Origin: a virus
Virus record (IMG/VR): IMGVR_UViG_3300025869_000091
Span: 1 to 25,190 of that record
Length of the DNA stretch: 25,190 nucleotides
Direction: 5' to 3' (one strand)
Below the pieces are notes generated by a model, which was given only the letters and a program-made list of their open reading frames with translations, was not told where the DNA came from and did no database searches. This document shows, piece after piece, positions 10,081 through 17,690 of the stretch (position 1 is the first letter of the stretch; each line of letters opens with the position of its first letter). The position numbers and the translations under genes were made by a program.

Positions 10081-10488
10081 TTATACTTTGCTTAATTCCT
10101 TTATGTAATTATTTACTAATCTTTTTGTTGTTGCAAGAGCAATTCTTTCTGATGGAAGCATTGGTCTCGCAGGAATATTACCACTACCAAATTGATGAAT
10201 ATCTGAATACTCAACTGGACTTCCAACCTTGACTCCTGTATTTCCAATTAATTCAAATACAAAACTCCCTGCAAGATTGCCAGTCTTTCTTAAAATCCTT
10301 CCATCTCTAAATTTTAAAGAAGCCCAACCTGTGCCATCGTTACCTTCTTGTCTAAAGTTTTTGTCAATTTCTTTTAGAAGAGTTACACCAATTCTTTTCA
10401 AAACTGGTTTTGGATTTTTTATTCCTCTGCCAATATTAGTCAATTTTAATTGTACTTGTTGACTACCTCTTACTGTTACCTTACCCAT
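10081..10488 (-). CDS. Virion morphogenesis protein, Mu gpG / HK97 gp10-like
   Basis: A 135-aa protein with hallmarks of the family that completes heads or tails in Mu-like phages: an N-terminal helix, then NFRQEGNDGTGWASLKFRDG, ILRKTGNLAGSFVFEL, a strand pair GVKVGSPVEYSDIHQFGSG, and the terminal IPARPMLP. The order G-x-x-W-x-x-L, L-R-x-T-G-x-L, Y-x-x-I-H-Q-F-G, P-A-R-P-x-L is diagnostic of PF05069-type and gp10-type proteins. It starts where the connector gene ends (positions 10488, overlapping by one base), suggesting coupled translation. The assignment is safe at family level. Confidence 0.85.
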   Translation of the reverse strand: MGKVTVRGSQQVQLKLTNIGRGIKNPKPVLKRIGVTLLKEIDKNFRQEGNDGTGWASLKFRDGRILRKTGNLAGSFVFELIGNTGVKVGSPVEYSDIHQFGSGNIPARPMLPSERIALATTKRLVNNYIKELSKV

Positions 10489-10985
10489 TAGTAATAAGGA
10501 CTGTACTCTTCAAGTCTTACTTCATCGTACTCATCTTGCAATCTGTCTGAATCAATTTGCTGTAAAGTTTCATCTAGCATTGTGAAAGTTGGATTGTAAT
10601 TCATTGTATTAGAAATAATTGTATCACCAGCATTGTAAGCTATGAGTTCAAGTGAAGATGTATAGAGTCCAATATCTCCATTGTTTATTTTATTTAATAA
10701 ATCAAAAACATAATCTTTACGTTCTGTGACCCACTTGTTTTCTGATTGTACTTCCTGAGTAAAAAATCTTTCTAAGATTTTAACCAAAGCATATTCTGTA
10801 CTGATTGTAGTCAGGACTGGAATTGAAGAACTGAATGGAGTTGTATAATTATTTACAACATAAGCATTGACTTCATTTTCTGCTTGGTCAATGTAGAAGG
10901 AAACCGAAGCAGAATTTACACTACTTAGGCTTCCTACTCTTGGATATAAACTATAAACATTAGCGACTGATGTATAATATGCCAT
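10488..10985 (-). CDS. Head-tail connector, Mu gp36-like (DUF1320-like)
   Basis: A 165-aa protein. The opening YTSVANVYSLYPRVG, then SFYIDQAENEVNAYVVNNYT and PFSSSIPVLTTISTEYALVKI, follows the Mu gp36/DUF1320 pattern: helix, a segment in which D-x-A-x-x-x-x-x-A-Y leads to the first contact with the portal, then a long helix ending in an aromatic and acidic region. The C-terminus (EVRLEEYSPYY) is acidic and aromatic. It is the first gene of the left-hand tail module and fits the head-tail joining complex. It follows an unrelated accessory gene, so the connector is separated from the capsid gene by about 5 kb of insertions. Confidence 0.75.
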   Translation of the reverse strand: MAYYTSVANVYSLYPRVGSLSSVNSASVSFYIDQAENEVNAYVVNNYTTPFSSSIPVLTTISTEYALVKILERFFTQEVQSENKWVTERKDYVFDLLNKINNGDIGLYTSSLELIAYNAGDTIISNTMNYNPTFTMLDETLQQIDSDRLQDEYDEVRLEEYSPYY

Positions 10986-11005: not shown

Positions 11006-11743
11006 TTATGCACTTTCTACTAATGAAAGTTTTTGTTCTTTTAGCTCCTTTCTTTTTTCTGCTCTGAGAGCTTTATCGTGCTCTGCATAAGCAGGGTTAA
11101 TTGCTAGAAATTTTTTATGTGCTAAATCTTGGTCTCTCATAATAAAGTGTTGATGACCTCTAGCATTGATTTCTTTAGTTCTCTCAGCTTTGGAAGAAAA
11201 CCCATCTGAGCCATTGTGGTTTTTTGTATAAACAGCTTTTAGAAAAACTTTATCTCCCCTATCAAAATTTGAAGGATGCCTTTTGATTATTTTTTCTCTA
11301 TCAAACTCACTACCCTGAACTCCAAAAAATGATTCTAGTTCATCCAAATTAAAAACATATATTTCATTATCAATAAGTTTGTAAAGTTTTCCAAAGGGTT
11401 TAGATACTAACTCATTAACATTTGAAGGATGAGTTTGTTTAAATTGCTTAGTGTTATACTTTTCCTTCACAGTATCTACATAAGGAAAAACTGGATTTCC
11501 GAAGCTTACTAAATTGTCAAAAACTACCTGTTGCTCATCTACAATTTGTTTATTTTCTTTTCGCAGTCTTTGTTTAAATTCATCGTAAACTTCTGTTACT
11601 TTTTCACATAATCCCCCTCTATAGTATTTGCGAAGTCCAAAATAATCAACATCGCCTTTTGCAAAATTCTCATAAGTAAACTCGATAATTTTTTCTTTTC
11701 CCCACGTATAACTTGCTTGGTCTGCGTAAATTTTTGTATTCAT
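11006..11743 (-). CDS. Unknown protein, second gene of accessory cassette 2
   Basis: A 245-aa basic protein. An ATG at 11761 exists, but the ATG at 11743 is preferred because GAGGAG sits 5 bases upstream of it. It contains two related short phrases (KQTHPSNVNELVS near residue 105, KRHPSNFDRGDK near 156) and charged helices at the C-terminus (KALRAEKRKELKEQKLSL). A long aromatic N-terminal part (YTWGKEKIIEFTYENFAKG) is notable. I cannot assign a family. It follows a 152-aa gene behind the duplicated promoter, so its expression may differ from that of the structural genes. No membrane segments or signal peptide are seen. Confidence 0.65.
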   Translation of the reverse strand: MNTKIYADQASYTWGKEKIIEFTYENFAKGDVDYFGLRKYYRGGLCEKVTEVYDEFKQRLRKENKQIVDEQQVVFDNLVSFGNPVFPYVDTVKEKYNTKQFKQTHPSNVNELVSKPFGKLYKLIDNEIYVFNLDELESFFGVQGSEFDREKIIKRHPSNFDRGDKVFLKAVYTKNHNGSDGFSSKAERTKEINARGHQHFIMRDQDLAHKKFLAINPAYAEHDKALRAEKRKELKEQKLSLVESA

Positions 11744-11769
11744 TTTATTCTCCTCGCTCATTTAGAGCT

Positions 11770-11790
11770 TGGCAGTTTTAGGTACTGCCA
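11770..11790. other. Intergenic hairpin in accessory cassette 2
   Basis: A 7-base perfect inverted repeat (TGGCAGT and ACTGCCA) with a 7-base loop lies between the two genes of the cassette. On the minus-strand transcript it ends just before the ribosome site of the second gene and has no U-run after it, so it is not a simple terminator in that direction. On the plus strand a T-rich stretch follows 9 bases later. In the transcript an alternative pairing of AGGT and ACCT overlapping the stem is also possible. Confidence 0.5.
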
Positions 11791-11801
11791 GACCTGATTT
11801 T

Positions 11802-12260
11802 TTATTTTATTGTGTTTCTTTTGTTTAGTACAATGTTCCCCTTAGCATCTAATTCTGTAAAACCGAAGTTGTCAACAACAAACTTGTTGCCATCTTTATC
11901 TTCTACAACATCACCTACTGAAACTGAATAAGAATTTTCTCTTCTTGAAACGTAAATGTTTCTTTCCATCCAACCTTTACTTTCATCTACATCAAGGTCA
12001 TGTGCGTGGTTACCTGCGTAGAAAACATCTTCTAAGTCTGTGCAGATGACTGTTAATGTTAATTGTAGTTGTGGCTCAACGATAGAAAGAAAATTTCTAC
12101 CATGTCCAGAATGTTTCATCCACCATTGTGTACCTTGTGAAGGGTTAGTGGAAAAAGGATAAGACCCACCATGTGCTTGGTCTAAAGTGCTTTCGAATTT
12201 GCCATCCTTGTTTGGCTCTTCGTTCTTGTATTGATAAACCTTGTAAAGTTGTTCTTTCAT
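11802..12260 (-). CDS. Unknown protein with YodL-like C-terminal pattern, first gene of cassette 2
   Basis: A 152-aa protein. The ATG at 12260 is used because AAGGAG precedes it by about 7 bases; the longer reading from 12305 has no such site. Residues about 18-60 have many Gly, His and aromatic residues (GGSYPFSTNP; WWMKHSGHGRNF). The C-terminal third (SYSVSVGDVVEDKDGNKFVV followed by DNFGFTEL) matches a pattern I know from small phage and plasmid proteins with a YodL-like end: S-V-S-V-G-D-V-V, a Gly turn, V-V-D-x-F-G-F. These are uncharacterised and have been proposed in some contexts as anti-defence or regulatory factors, but I have no proof here. It is transcribed from the duplicated promoter element. 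Confidence 0.65.
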   Translation of the reverse strand: MKEQLYKVYQYKNEEPNKDGKFESTLDQAHGGSYPFSTNPSQGTQWWMKHSGHGRNFLSIVEPQLQLTLTVICTDLEDVFYAGNHAHDLDVDESKGWMERNIYVSRRENSYSVSVGDVVEDKDGNKFVVDNFGFTELDAKGNIVLNKRNTIK

Positions 12261-12311
12261 TTTAGTATCTCCTTGATGATTGTTTTTAATTTGTTTTTTC
12301 ATCATGAGTTA

Positions 12312-12422: not shown

Positions 12423-15278
12423 TTATAGAAATTCGCCTTCAAATGGCTCAGATACTTCTGAATATCTGCTTTTTAAATAAGCAAAAAATTCATCACTATC
12501 TTGAAATCTTCCTAAGTTATCTTGCACTTCTTTTTTAGGAATATCTTTTCCTGCACTAATGTTAAATTGAAACTCAAGTCCTTCACCTAACATTCTTAAT
12601 GACTCAGAATAAAATTGTAAAGCTTCTGGTTGATACATTGAATAACTATTTAAAAAATCTTTTCTAAAATACTCTCCTGCTTCAAGACAATAATCAATTA
12701 CCTTCTGTGTGTGTTGCCCATTGTTTTGTTGTATTTCATATCTTGAAAGATGAACTAAATCTCTAATCCATAAAAATTTTCCAAGCAATCTTTCTGGATT
12801 AAGTTCTCTATCTTTTTTCATTAACTCAATATTTCTAGTAAACCTTCCTCTTCTAACTGTTTCAGTTAAGTAACCATCGTGTGCAATATCAGCATCCGAG
12901 ATTACTGTGCTAGTACCAACTCCTTCGTTGATTCCTAGTTCTGGATGTTCATGAACGTGACCTAAAAATTTTATTTTCTTATGATTCCTAAATATCCTGA
13001 CAGGTAAATCAATTTTTATTTCAGAGCCATCAGCAGTAAAGTGATGTTGCTTTATTGAATAACCATTAAAAATATTTTCTCTTAAATACTTTCTAATATT
13101 CCACGACTCTAATAATTCTTCATCAGAATCAATCCAGAGAATCCAATCACTCTTTGCATCTTTGATAGAATGATTTCTGGCACTATCAAAACCAATCTCT
13201 GTAGCTGGGTCGCAATAAATAATCTTAGCTCCATACTGTCTAGCAATATCTAAAGTTGAATCTGTGCTTCCATTGTCACAGATAATTATTTCATCTGCTA
13301 AGTCTTTGACAGATTTTAAACATCTATGCAACATTGATTCTGCATTTTTTGTTATCATGCAAACTGAAACTGTCTGCTTAGGTGCAACAACTTTAATTTT
13401 ACGTTCCATGTTAATTGGTCTGCAAGGCTTTTGATTCTTAATGTAACTAATTACCCACCAACCTTTACCTTCTTGTTTTAAATAATTTGGCTCTGCTGAA
13501 ACTATCTTGATTGATAGTTCTTTTTTGTCAGCTAACATATTTGCTAAGTCATACCTTTCAAAGTTCCAAAGATGTGCATTACGATTATCATCCCACATTC
13601 CAAATGGTACTGTGATACTCATGAGTCCTGATGGTTTTAGATTCTTTTCTAATTCATCTAAGAACTTATCTGGCTCTGGTTGATGCTCTAATATCTCACC
13701 AGCAAAGATTACATCATAAGCTTGATTCTCTAACTTTGAGCCATCGCTTCCAACATGAAATGTTATAGGCAATTCTGAGCCGAATTTAGCCTTCATTTTC
13801 TCAGCGAGTATGTTTTCCTCTTTTGAGATATTGATGGCATCTATCGTAGCTCCAAATGCCTTAGAGAAGAGAATAGACTCGTTACCTATCCCACTAGCAA
13901 AGTCTAAAATCTTAGGATTCTTTTTACCTTTTAGGTAATTATTAATTCCTGACATTGCAACTTCAACTCTTGGATAGTTTCGCATCTCAATATCAGTTTC
14001 AATCTTTGCATATTCTTTTCCTAGATGTTCATATTTTTGTTTGTATAGCTTTGGATGGTCTACATATTTATATAAACATTCTAATCCTTCTGTTCTTTCT
14101 TTGTCACAATCAACCTTCTCTGCAAGATACTTGTAAGTCATAATATCTTCTCTCTCGTAAAGATGGTTATATAGAGAATCCCTTTTAGCAGATTTCTCTG
14201 CAAACATTTTTAAGAATTGCTCTTCCCATTGAATTGCTACGTTATCCCAATCATATTTTTTAACGTATTCTAATCCTGCTTTCTGTGCTTTCTTATAAGC
14301 AACTTCATCGTTCATTAACTTCCAAGCACCTTCAACGAATGCTTCGTGATATGCTCCACTCTTTGCATCACCATCTATAATTAGTCCTGCTTCATTACAT
14401 AAGGTTTCAGGTAAAGCACCTCGATTAGAAGTAACCATTGGCAATCCACACATTTGAGTTTCCATAGCTGTTATGCAAGAAGTTTCATAAAAGTTTGTAG
14501 GATATAAAAACAACTTTGATTCCTGATACAACTTATATAAATCATTTTTATTTAAAGCTCCAACGTGTTTAATTTTAAATCCTTTATCTGCATAACCTTT
14601 GATTGTAGAAGCTAACGTATTATAAAAAACTTCCATTTCCTTGACTGTGTTATCGTAACCAGCAATCACAACTTCTATGTCTTGGTCTTTTTCCCAGAGC
14701 TTAGGAAGTATAGAATACAACAAAGTATCCATTCCTCTTTCTGGTCTGTTTGTATAAACAACTTGATTCTTTTTTTGTATATTGTTATTTGGTTTTACTA
14801 ACTTCACTCCATTAGATGTTTTGAAAAAACCATTATCTTCTTTTCTCAGATTATTAATTTCAATGTAGTTGTCTATGTGCCAATCTGACAAACAAAAAAC
14901 TTTATCTACGTTCCAAAGAGCACCTGTAAATTGTGACCTTCTGCTTTTTTGTGCAAAGTCATGTTGCCATAAAATATTTATTTTAGAACTGTATTTCGCC
15001 ATAAACATTTCTGGAACTCTTTGAACTATTAATACATCGTGTGGACAGCTTTGTGCATATTGCTGGAAGCTTTCAATTGGCAAGTAGTTTACATTGTCGT
15101 GCTTTCCTGCATTGTCAGTATTACAAAACAAACTTACATGATGACCTCTTTTTCCCAGAGCATGAGCTATGCAGACTCCAGCAGTTTCACTTCCACCAAG
15201 AGACTTTGTTTTTAAAGTGTCGAAGTTAACCGACATTCCATTCATATAAATTACTATATCTAGCTTGTGGTTTTCCAT
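12423..15278 (-). CDS. GT4 glycosyltransferase - methyltransferase - GT2 glycosyltransferase fusion
   Basis: A 951-aa protein starting at ATG 15278 behind AAAGGTAGGG; a longer reading from 15317 lacks a ribosome site. Residues 1-360 form a GT-B-type transferase: LGGSETAGVCIAHALGKRGH at the start, NRPERG near 177 and the E-x7-E donor motif at E265/E273 (FYETSCITAMETQMCGLP). Residues 435-620 hold a class I methyltransferase with a SAM loop DFASGIGNES at 459-468 and EILEHQPEPD near 528. Residues 636-850 are a GT-A, GT2-type transferase: VCMITKNAESMLHRCLKSV, DNGSTDS, and the metal-binding DSD at 717-719, then GHVHEHPE. The product would transfer two sugars and a methyl group onto some acceptor. 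It lies between capsid and connector genes behind an endonuclease gene. Whether the acceptor is virion protein or host glycan is unknown. The gene has no signal peptide or membrane segment. Confidence 0.85.
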   Translation of the reverse strand: MENHKLDIVIYMNGMSVNFDTLKTKSLGGSETAGVCIAHALGKRGHHVSLFCNTDNAGKHDNVNYLPIESFQQYAQSCPHDVLIVQRVPEMFMAKYSSKINILWQHDFAQKSRRSQFTGALWNVDKVFCLSDWHIDNYIEINNLRKEDNGFFKTSNGVKLVKPNNNIQKKNQVVYTNRPERGMDTLLYSILPKLWEKDQDIEVVIAGYDNTVKEMEVFYNTLASTIKGYADKGFKIKHVGALNKNDLYKLYQESKLFLYPTNFYETSCITAMETQMCGLPMVTSNRGALPETLCNEAGLIIDGDAKSGAYHEAFVEGAWKLMNDEVAYKKAQKAGLEYVKKYDWDNVAIQWEEQFLKMFAEKSAKRDSLYNHLYEREDIMTYKYLAEKVDCDKERTEGLECLYKYVDHPKLYKQKYEHLGKEYAKIETDIEMRNYPRVEVAMSGINNYLKGKKNPKILDFASGIGNESILFSKAFGATIDAINISKEENILAEKMKAKFGSELPITFHVGSDGSKLENQAYDVIFAGEILEHQPEPDKFLDELEKNLKPSGLMSITVPFGMWDDNRNAHLWNFERYDLANMLADKKELSIKIVSAEPNYLKQEGKGWWVISYIKNQKPCRPINMERKIKVVAPKQTVSVCMITKNAESMLHRCLKSVKDLADEIIICDNGSTDSTLDIARQYGAKIIYCDPATEIGFDSARNHSIKDAKSDWILWIDSDEELLESWNIRKYLRENIFNGYSIKQHHFTADGSEIKIDLPVRIFRNHKKIKFLGHVHEHPELGINEGVGTSTVISDADIAHDGYLTETVRRGRFTRNIELMKKDRELNPERLLGKFLWIRDLVHLSRYEIQQNNGQHTQKVIDYCLEAGEYFRKDFLNSYSMYQPEALQFYSESLRMLGEGLEFQFNISAGKDIPKKEVQDNLGRFQDSDEFFAYLKSRYSEVSEPFEGEFL

Positions 15279-15796
15279 GTTTTCCCTACCTTTATATCGT
15301 AAATTGTTCGATAACATACTTTGTACATATCAGCAATGTCTTGCAACCTCTTACCCTCTTTGATTAATCTTCTTATTTTTTTTACATTTCTAGGTTGTAG
15401 GACTCGACTAGGTGATGTCATTGTAGTCCAATCTGCATTGCTTGTGCCATGCTTTATTGAATCTGCTTTATTGTCTTTTGCATTTCCCCAATATAAATTT
15501 TTTGCATGGTTAAAAACTTTATTTCCATCCTTGTGTAAAGCCATAGGTTTTTCTTTGCTTTTGCCTTGACAAAAAGCCTCAGCTACTAATCTGTGTACTT
15601 TTGCTTTTATGTAAGTTTTGTTAGGGTAGAGAGTAACAGTCATATAGCCATCTCTATCTGGATTCTGGGATAAAAACCTGCGTGTGGTTTTATCTTTATT
15701 ATAATATTTTGTTGATGTAACTTGTCCAGTATTGGAAACCATATAGTCTTCGTATTGTGTAGGTTTCCATATTTCTTTTCGATTTTGGTAACTCAT
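15260..15796 (-). CDS. NUMOD4 / HNH homing endonuclease
   Basis: A 178-aa protein of the free-standing phage homing endonuclease type. Residues 8-30 (EIWKPTQYEDYMVSNTGQVT) are the NUMOD4 DNA-binding motif. Residues 62-105 form the HNH_3 nuclease (KVHRLVAEAF, then ALHKDGNKVFNHAKNLYWGN) with H88 and N96/N100 as likely catalytic or zinc-proximal residues. Residues 136-176 (KKIRRLIKEG then LQDIADMYKVCYRTIYDIKV) look like a helix-turn-helix for target recognition. It overlaps the glycosyltransferase gene by 19 bases and has a good promoter just upstream but no ribosome site, so the message would be nearly leaderless. Such genes spread by cutting phages that lack them, and neighbours travel with them. 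Confidence 0.85.
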   Translation of the reverse strand: MSYQNRKEIWKPTQYEDYMVSNTGQVTSTKYYNKDKTTRRFLSQNPDRDGYMTVTLYPNKTYIKAKVHRLVAEAFCQGKSKEKPMALHKDGNKVFNHAKNLYWGNAKDNKADSIKHGTSNADWTTMTSPSRVLQPRNVKKIRRLIKEGKRLQDIADMYKVCYRTIYDIKVGKTWKTTS

Positions 15797-15840: not shown

Positions 15841-15893
15841 GTGTAAAATAGTCTAAGTTGTCTTTTATACTATATCAGGTAAAATACCTTATT

Positions 15894-16064
15894 ATGAAAA
15901 AAGAACTTTCAAGAGAAGAAGAGTTAATTGCTAAAGTAGAAAGGCAATTTACAATTCAGGCTTCTCAGACAATAAGTTTTAAGGAAGAGAAAGAAGGAAG
16001 TGTTTTCTGGTATGACCCAAAGATGATTCCACTATCTCGACCTCTAAACTATAAAAAGAAATAA
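15894..16064 (+). CDS. Small plus-strand protein of unknown function
   Basis: A 56-aa protein starting at ATG 15894, on the opposite strand to the rest of the window. A longer reading from TTG 15858 is possible but the ATG follows a small AGGTA/TACCT inverted repeat (15877-15888). The ribosome site (AGG) is 14 bases away and weak. The protein starts with charged helix (KKELSREEELIAKVERQFTI), then EEKEGSVFWYDPKMIPLSRP and a Lys-rich end. I recognise no family. Its stop codon lies in the stem of the terminator-like hairpin. A single inverted gene with its own ends in a structural operon is typical of a moron-like insertion, but the evidence is limited to orientation, length and composition. Confidence 0.5.
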   Translation: MKKELSREEELIAKVERQFTIQASQTISFKEEKEGSVFWYDPKMIPLSRPLNYKKK

Positions 16065-16315: not shown

Positions 16316-16339
16316 AAGGGAGCAGTTGCCTACTCCCTT
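16316..16339 (-). terminator. GCAA-tetraloop hairpin after the major capsid gene
   Basis: Reading leftward, arm AAGGGAGTAG, loop GCAA, arm CTGCTCCCTT: ten pairs including one U-G wobble, closed by a GNRA tetraloop, 11 bases after the capsid stop codon. The following UUAUUUCC is only moderately U-rich, so it may act as a weak terminator or protect the 3' end of the abundant capsid message. Confidence 0.65.
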
Positions 16340-16350
16340 TAATGTCTTTG

Positions 16351-17301
16351 TTAGCTTACACAAGCAGTTAACAGATAACCTAATTCTGGAGCTGCAATCT
16401 TTTCATCTTGATAATATTGAACTCTTAAATTAGTAAAGTTTCTGTGGTCTGGGTCATCCCATTTTTCGACAGCGAATGGTGCTCCGAACATTGGGTTTGT
16501 CCATCTAAATCCATACATTAGTGATGGATTTTTGCCATCAGTTTCAGCATTAGCAAAGTGACCTAAGACTGTATTTTTTCCCCACACATCTGAGAAAGAA
16601 TCAGCTAGATTTTCACTACCACCATTGATGACTGACTTACCTACATAAACATTTGCTACATCAAACAATGAAGCTAGAAGGTCAGATGTTACAACACCTT
16701 TTTGAACATACTTAATTCTGTCAAGAATGTCTGCGTGTCTAATAAGTGCATCATAACATTGTTTACCTAAGATAATTGTATTAGGCTCTAATCCTGTTGT
16801 GCTTCTAATTGCTTCTTTAGCTGTAGCAATATCTCCGAATGGGTCTGAAGTACCTGCTGCACTTGAATCCCATTTAGAACTAACTGCTGCTGTGCCACCT
16901 AAGTTGCTTCCAGTAGTTAGAATTCCTGCTACTCTGTTTTCCATATCTAAGTTTAAAAGATTGAAAAGATTTCTTGCTGCCTTCTCATCTAACTTTAATG
17001 GATTGTCTTGGTTTACTAAAGTTTCGTAATCCATTTCATCTACTAATGCATAGTTAGTTGCATAGTAAGAATCAGAGGATACGTTAAACTGTGCTGTTCT
17101 ACCTTTAGTTCTTGGAGCTCTTACTGTTGTACTTGGTACTCTAAAGAAATCGCCTTTGTCATACTTGAAATACAAATCAGATTGTTTTGCTACATCAACT
17201 ATCGGAAGAAAATTTTGTACGACTGTTCCTACTGGCTCAAATCCAACAACTAAATTGGATAATGGTCTGTCAATATGAACGTCTCTTGATGTTATTCCCA
17301 T
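16351..17301 (-). CDS. Major capsid protein (HK97-fold type)
   Basis: A 316-aa protein, start supported by AGGAGATT 9 bases before ATG. The opening (DRPLSNLVVGFEPVGTVVQN then FLPIVDVAKQSDLYFKYDKG) matches the N-arm of a class of major capsid proteins that I know from Mu-like and marine phages. Residues 60-130 (RAPRTKGRTAQFNVSSDSYY; YALVDEMDYETLVNQDNPL) fit the E-loop and spine helix regions, and the C-terminus has LMYGFRWTNPMFGAPFAVEK. It lies after the decoration gene and is followed by a strong hairpin. Length and order agree with an uncleaved-size HK97-fold capsid subunit of about 34 kDa. No head-fibre domain is fused. Confidence 0.85.
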   Translation of the reverse strand: MGITSRDVHIDRPLSNLVVGFEPVGTVVQNFLPIVDVAKQSDLYFKYDKGDFFRVPSTTVRAPRTKGRTAQFNVSSDSYYATNYALVDEMDYETLVNQDNPLKLDEKAARNLFNLLNLDMENRVAGILTTGSNLGGTAAVSSKWDSSAAGTSDPFGDIATAKEAIRSTTGLEPNTIILGKQCYDALIRHADILDRIKYVQKGVVTSDLLASLFDVANVYVGKSVINGGSENLADSFSDVWGKNTVLGHFANAETDGKNPSLMYGFRWTNPMFGAPFAVEKWDDPDHRNFTNLRVQYYQDEKIAAPELGYLLTACVS

Positions 17302-17327: not shown

Positions 17328-17690
17328 TTAACCTCTGTAGCCATTGTGCTGTACTAATAGTTGGAAGTAACCACCACTTGCTACTGATGTTATTGATTTA
17401 CCAAGAATGTATTGTCCTGATGTTGCTGCTAAACCTGTACCAGATGCAGTTACTGAAATCCAGCTTCCTGCTCCTACAGTTCCACCTGCAAAACATCTTG
17501 TGAGTCCACCAACTGTAACAGTTGCGTTCTCACCACTCTGTGGTTTGTTGTTTAAAACTCCAAGAACTCCTGCACCAGCAGCAACTCTTAAAGCAATCAT
17601 GTTTTCACCAGATGATACATTCACAATTTTATATTGTGCTGTACTTAAATCTTCTGATGCTACCATACCTATGTATTGTTTTTGTGACAT
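17328..17690 (-). CDS. Capsid decoration protein (DUF2190 / gpD-like)
   Basis: A 120-aa beta-rich protein with many Gly, Ala, Val and Ser: GMVASEDLSTAQYKIVNVSS, GAGVLGVLNNKPQSGENATV and GGTVGAGSWISVTASGTG. The sequence of short strands joined by Gly turns is the DUF2190 pattern of head decoration proteins that stabilise the capsid, and the gene lies directly before the capsid gene. Mu and lambda have analogous small proteins in this slot. No catalytic residues are seen. Confidence is good for virion decoration and moderate for the exact family. Confidence 0.75.
   Translation of the reverse strand: MSQKQYIGMVASEDLSTAQYKIVNVSSGENMIALRVAAGAGVLGVLNNKPQSGENATVTVGGLTRCFAGGTVGAGSWISVTASGTGLAATSGQYILGKSITSVASGGYFQLLVQHNGYRG

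Follow-up and report, generated by a model that had tools for sequence, protein, structure and literature searches.

The locus lies on the minus strand of the window, i.e., the whole stretch of 25,190 nucleotides of IMG/VR virus record IMGVR_UViG_3300025869_000091 that was analyzed in this study. In the direction of transcription, it encodes a small head protein (positions 17328 to 17690; phrog_673, conserved in the clade), the major capsid protein (16351 to 17301; phrog_1005, 2.1e-69), a free-standing NUMOD4/HNH homing-endonuclease-like protein (15260 to 15796), a GT4-methyltransferase-GT2 fusion protein (12423 to 15278), and a gp36-type head-tail connector (10488 to 10985; Pfam PF07030, 2e-7), which closes the slot. 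The mechanically defined ORF of the fusion protein (12423 to 15317, minus strand) corresponds to 964 amino acids; homologues begin at the ATG at position 15278, which is the conserved start of the 951-residue enzyme. A preliminary description of this DNA placed the enzyme gene between the capsid gene and the connector gene, and this position is correct, except that two further ORFs (11802 to 12305 and 11006 to 11761) separate the enzyme from the connector. Both have no assigned family and occur only in copies of this phage; a family search with X251 and X167 gave no match. A strong palindrome (11769 to 11791) is located between these two ORFs. A small plus-strand ORF of 68 amino acids (15858 to 16064), antisense to the operon, is found between the capsid and HNH genes and is likewise restricted to copies of this phage.

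A strong terminator-like hairpin (16316 to 16339, minus strand; -17.6 kcal/mol, z = -3.9) is observed just 3' of the capsid gene, whereas the hairpin downstream of the enzyme gene is weak (z = -1.6); the next strong palindrome is approximately 630 bases beyond the 3' end of the gene, past another ORF. Thus, the terminator-like hairpins initially described on both flanks are well supported only on the capsid side. Promoter-like sites occur at the level expected by chance (35 found versus 35.9 expected), so the promoter of its own that had been attributed to the enzyme is not supported. The gene had also been called part of an island, but this label is wrong because the gene matches its neighbors in base composition and is fixed in the clade.

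The enzyme is encoded by a single ORF in the order GT4, methyltransferase, and GT2, and each domain scores above its Pfam cut-off (E-values of 8e-15 for Glycos_transf_1, 4e-11 for Methyltransf_23, and 3.5e-22 for Glycos_transf_2), in agreement with the three-domain composition proposed at the outset. The GT4 domain with the GT-B fold (approximately residues 1 to 365; 14184 to 15278) matches PF00534 (55.2 bits against a cut-off of 26.4) and PF13692 and contains the E-x7-E motif at Glu265 and Glu273. The SAM-dependent methyltransferase domain (approximately residues 425 to 590; 13509 to 14006) scores above the cut-offs of PF13489, PF13847, and PF08241 and has motif I. The GT2 domain with the GT-A fold (approximately residues 640 to 800; 12879 to 13361) is of the SunS/GmaR type, as judged from PDB matches and Foldseek, matches PF00535 (79.6 bits against a cut-off of 23.3), and contains a DSD motif at residues 717 to 719. 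The remaining residues 801 to 951 (12426 to 12878) form a helical C-terminal region according to the secondary structure of the model and a domain HMM, and this region is found together with the GT2 domain in the full-length family members.

A structure model built from an alignment of 39 homologues has a mean pLDDT of 92.2 and a pTM of 0.91, with all domains packed confidently. The motif positions reported earlier (Glu265/Glu273 and Asp717/Asp719) are correct and are invariant in the 39 homologues. In the wider set of informative distinct rows, Glu265 is kept in 95 of 96 and Glu273 in 94 of 96 for the GT4 domain, and both Asp717 and Asp719 are kept in all 83 rows for the GT2 domain. Motif I and the E-x2-E-H stretch of the methyltransferase domain are also conserved among homologues, i.e., Asp459 is found in 75 of 76 rows, and Glu528 and His532 in 75 of 75. 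Residue 483, at a position that usually contacts the ribose of SAM, is aspartate or glutamate in most homologues, while it is asparagine in 16 of 75 rows, which represent the subclade of the window. This substitution makes the methylation step less certain and is the chief doubt about it.

The nearest folds of the GT4 domain are BshA, PimA, TarM, and SdgB; the last of these is a protein glycosyltransferase that was solved with an O-glycosylated SD peptide. For the GT2 domain, the top Foldseek match is SunS, and ThuS is also among the closest folds. SunS and ThuS are glycocin peptide S-glycosyltransferases, the acceptor of which is a small bacteriocin peptide. The enzyme remains well under the cut-off of the SunS family TIGR04195 (76.2 versus 350 bits), although it may act like SunS while standing outside that family. 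The best PDB sequence matches of the GT2 domain are GmaR (6.7e-24, reaching 6e-33 with a profile) and SunS (2.2e-15), at an identity of approximately 30% or lower. GmaR is the flagellin GlcNAc transferase of Listeria monocytogenes (PDB accession number 22ao); unlike the enzyme, it carries TPR and antirepressor domains, and a methyltransferase or GT4 domain is not described for it (PMC9638930).

The three-domain order is not unique to the window but is shared by a large family in uncultured phages. Scanning of IMG/VR with six homologues gave at least 484 relatives, some with the GT4 domain only, and the best 80 were kept. The loci collected contain 69 ORFs with GT4-MT-GT2-CTD in one chain, and the full domain order is present in approximately 60 nonduplicate contigs; GT4-MT occurs in 70 loci after removal of known duplicate contigs, 9 of which are cut by contig ends. 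Among 56 enzyme-anchored loci with at least 2.5 kb of upstream sequence each, the capsid gene lies no more than 2 kb upstream of the enzyme in 46; in several of the remaining loci, a scaffold or portal gene is found immediately upstream. With two narrow capsid scans, the enzyme was found adjoining the capsid gene in 29 of 29 viral contigs that encode a capsid protein at least 50% identical to that of the window and have enough downstream sequence. For more distant capsids, the enzyme is present in 46 and absent from 9, a ratio biased by the seeding of the scan with capsids from enzyme-bearing loci. For phages with this head type, the enzyme is best regarded as part of the core gene set. The isolated phages searched did not yield the enzyme, and it was likewise not encountered as a free cellular gene: the isolated-phage collection gave single-domain matches only, none with more than 80% coverage, and none of the isolates searched is related to the window at the nucleotide level. 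When genomes were scanned, a close alignment gave no match; with a wider alignment, MAG contigs were matched, several of which have phage head genes beside the enzyme gene.

Several variant layouts were observed. In L011, L162, and L175 (3 of the 29 close loci), the enzyme gene occupies the same slot after the capsid gene but in inverted orientation, which implies that it has its own transcription there and that cotranscription with the capsid gene is not required. A GT4-GT2 protein without the methyltransferase directly follows a capsid gene of the unrelated family phrog_1328 in L120 to L122. L100 has a phrog_1005 capsid gene followed by a protein with the permuted order GT2-MT-GT4. These arrangements indicate that the pairing of such enzymes with capsid genes recurs. 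Methyltransferase-less GT4-GT2 proteins are also encoded in L123 and L126, and permuted fusions (GT2-MT-GT4 and GT2-GT4) are encoded in L097, L100, and L094 to L105; a different HNH gene lies between the capsid gene and the permuted fusion in L100. L034 and L046 have a rearranged layout, in which the HNH and enzyme genes are divergent from the connector and neck genes and do not follow the capsid gene.

In addition to its linkage to virion structural genes, the enzyme shares its inheritance with them. In the close group, capsid identity tracks that of the GT4, methyltransferase, and GT2 domains with rho values of 0.83, 0.77, and 0.76, respectively, which are descriptive values since sequence pairs in identity matrices are not independent. 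Every domain is under purifying selection (dN/dS of 0.086 to 0.145 in the L008-L010 pair, quoted because the comparison of the window with L005 is saturated at synonymous sites). Together with the domain searches, the confident fold, and the conserved catalytic residues, this per-domain selection supports the single-chain glycosyltransferase-methyltransferase-glycosyltransferase enzyme of the preliminary description.

We consider it probable that this enzyme decorates a virion protein, most plausibly that of the capsid, with a short glycan that carries a methyl cap. In the pathway that we infer, including its acceptor, step order, sugars, timing, and purpose, a whole short glycosylation route would be fused in one phage-encoded chain. 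The C-terminal GT2 domain, whose SunS/GmaR type links sugars straight to the side chains of proteins, would probably initiate glycan synthesis on a Ser/Thr (or Cys) residue of a virion protein, for which the major capsid protein encoded next door would be the most likely acceptor; the N-terminal GT4 domain would then add a second sugar, and the SAM-dependent domain in the middle would cap the glycan by methylation. The sugar donors are probably supplied by the pool of the host, as a nucleotide-sugar epimerase was detected in none of 19 related contigs, although absences are weak evidence where contigs may be fragments. The product may serve to change the particle surface, adhesion, or stability. 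The virion link is favored by the constant location of the enzyme gene beside the capsid gene; a head-operon position alone is no proof that a virion protein is the substrate.

The main rival reading is that the enzyme modifies the host surface (lipopolysaccharide, teichoic acid, or flagellin), thereby blocking superinfection or altering that surface. Surface polysaccharide synthesis typically involves GT4 and GT2 families, phage glycosyltransferases are often cargo genes of that sort (phrog class "moron"), and GmaR, the best solved relative of the GT2 domain, itself glycosylates flagellin; however, the acceptor of both GmaR and SunS is a protein. Moreover, cargo genes come and go, whereas the enzyme is fixed in the head block throughout a very broad range of phages and codiverges with the capsid protein. 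No homologue lay in a host-surface sugar cluster in the loci examined, no flippase, polymerase, or anchor gene is located beside the enzyme in the window, and no integrase was found in the 19 related contigs, which may be fragments. Host-surface modification is therefore disfavored by the fixed capsid linkage, and we regard it as unlikely. A slightly smaller chance is given to another virion protein as the acceptor, i.e., the small upstream head protein, the tail tube, or the tail fibers. The phrog_673 head protein is rich in Ser/Thr and is present in most of the same loci, and both capsid and tail-tube subunits are glycosylated in mycobacteriophages (PMC12619734), but the enzyme gene directly follows the capsid gene, even where the latter belongs to an unrelated family. 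This adjacency is compatible with a second acceptor. That the enzyme glycosylates modified bases of the phage DNA, as certain phage glycosyltransferases do according to work cited in PMC12619734, is very improbable: thymidylate synthase/hydroxymethylase homologues (PF00303) are rare, being found in just 3 of the 19 related contigs, possibly fragments, which disfavors DNA modification; in addition, the nearest solved relatives of the GT2 domain act on protein, and the gene is placed in the head operon.

The endonuclease bears on one more explanation, namely, that it introduced the enzyme in the form of a mobile cargo island, as had been suggested for this locus. The NUMOD4/HNH ORF itself was located next to the enzyme as previously described; it has a NUMOD4 motif (1.1e-6), an HNH-type match (phrog_59, 2.8e-36), and a sporadic presence at one site, consistent with a predicted homing endonuclease. 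Its 3' end overlaps the start of the enzyme gene by 19 nucleotides, and the same overlap is found in most HNH-bearing loci, which would fit joint transfer. However, of the 29 close capsid-anchored loci with the enzyme, only 18 have the HNH gene and 11 do not, and nearly all of the distant enzyme loci lack it. Furthermore, HNH identity shows rho values of only 0.24 with the capsid, 0.09 with GT4, and 0.03 with GT2, again as descriptive values for nonindependent pairs, and in L015 the HNH protein is 77% identical while the GT4 domain is 52% identical. As judged from these sequence comparisons, the cargo-island explanation appears to be already contradicted, and we assign it the smallest chance of all. 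The absences and the uncorrelated divergence indicate that the endonuclease is best regarded as a mobile gene in its own right, with the start of the enzyme gene as its insertion site; i.e., the HNH gene inserts beside the enzyme gene, not the enzyme gene beside the HNH gene. The HNH alleles of two near-identical phages (15260 to 15796 in the window and 85 to 621 in L002) diverge over the N-terminal third and agree over the remainder, which represents a recombination mosaic. A group I intron or known RNA near the endonuclease was considered and rejected, as no Rfam match was obtained in the window.

Glycosylation of the virion by phage-encoded enzymes has precedents. Corndog encodes an O-methyltransferase, two glycosyltransferases, and a putative N-acetylglucosaminyltransferase between its portal and protease genes, and capsid modification was proposed because expected capsid peptides were missing (PMC4351075). 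Glycosylated proteins are reported in Che8, Corndog, and Myrna (Freeman et al. 2023, as cited in PMC12363180), and Che8 gp110 and Corndog gp38 are named as essential for capsid glycosylation in work cited in the same article. These phages resemble the one studied here in combining glycosyltransferases with O-methyltransferase functions and, as would also apply here, in the glycosylated virion that results, and in Corndog the genes also lie inside the head block. In contrast, they use several separate or partly fused genes that are apparently unrelated to the single chain fixed beside the capsid gene, the homology being compared for Che8: gp110 is a GT25 protein with no detectable homology to the enzyme family (hhalign probability of 0.1%), and gp108 is a GT2-methyltransferase fusion with just weak methyltransferase likeness to it (12%). 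A glycosyltransferase and a methyltransferase are also joined in the cellular GT2 protein for type B flagellin of C. difficile (CDR20291_0242), which is proposed to add and methylate rhamnose, extending a protein-bound glycan; however, no GT4 domain is reported for it, and a separate GT1 is needed for the attachment of GlcNAc (PMC5207246). Our literature search found no GT-MT-GT fusion in phages. Thus, the kind of system is already known, and the fused, capsid-locked enzyme is a new form of it.

Virion glycosylation has so far been demonstrated mainly in phages of mycobacteria. More tentatively, and at somewhat less than an even chance, a large group of uncultured tailed phages may routinely build a methyl-capped capsid disaccharide with one self-contained assembly-line enzyme, in which case methyl-glycosylated capsids would be common in environmental phages rather than a mycobacteriophage peculiarity. 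Virion glycosylation would then be widespread and recognizable by a clear gene marker, and the enzyme would offer a compact one-chain tool for protein glycosylation. In mycobacteriophages, the glycans serve as a shield against antibodies; this cannot be the motive for environmental phages, and the question would be raised of what the glycan protects against or adheres to. Possible host leads are provided by L114 and L123, which are candidate prophages in long MAG contigs labeled as Deltaproteobacteria (982 kb) and Armatimonadota (3.1-Mb chromosome) and carry the enzyme or its methyltransferase-less form.
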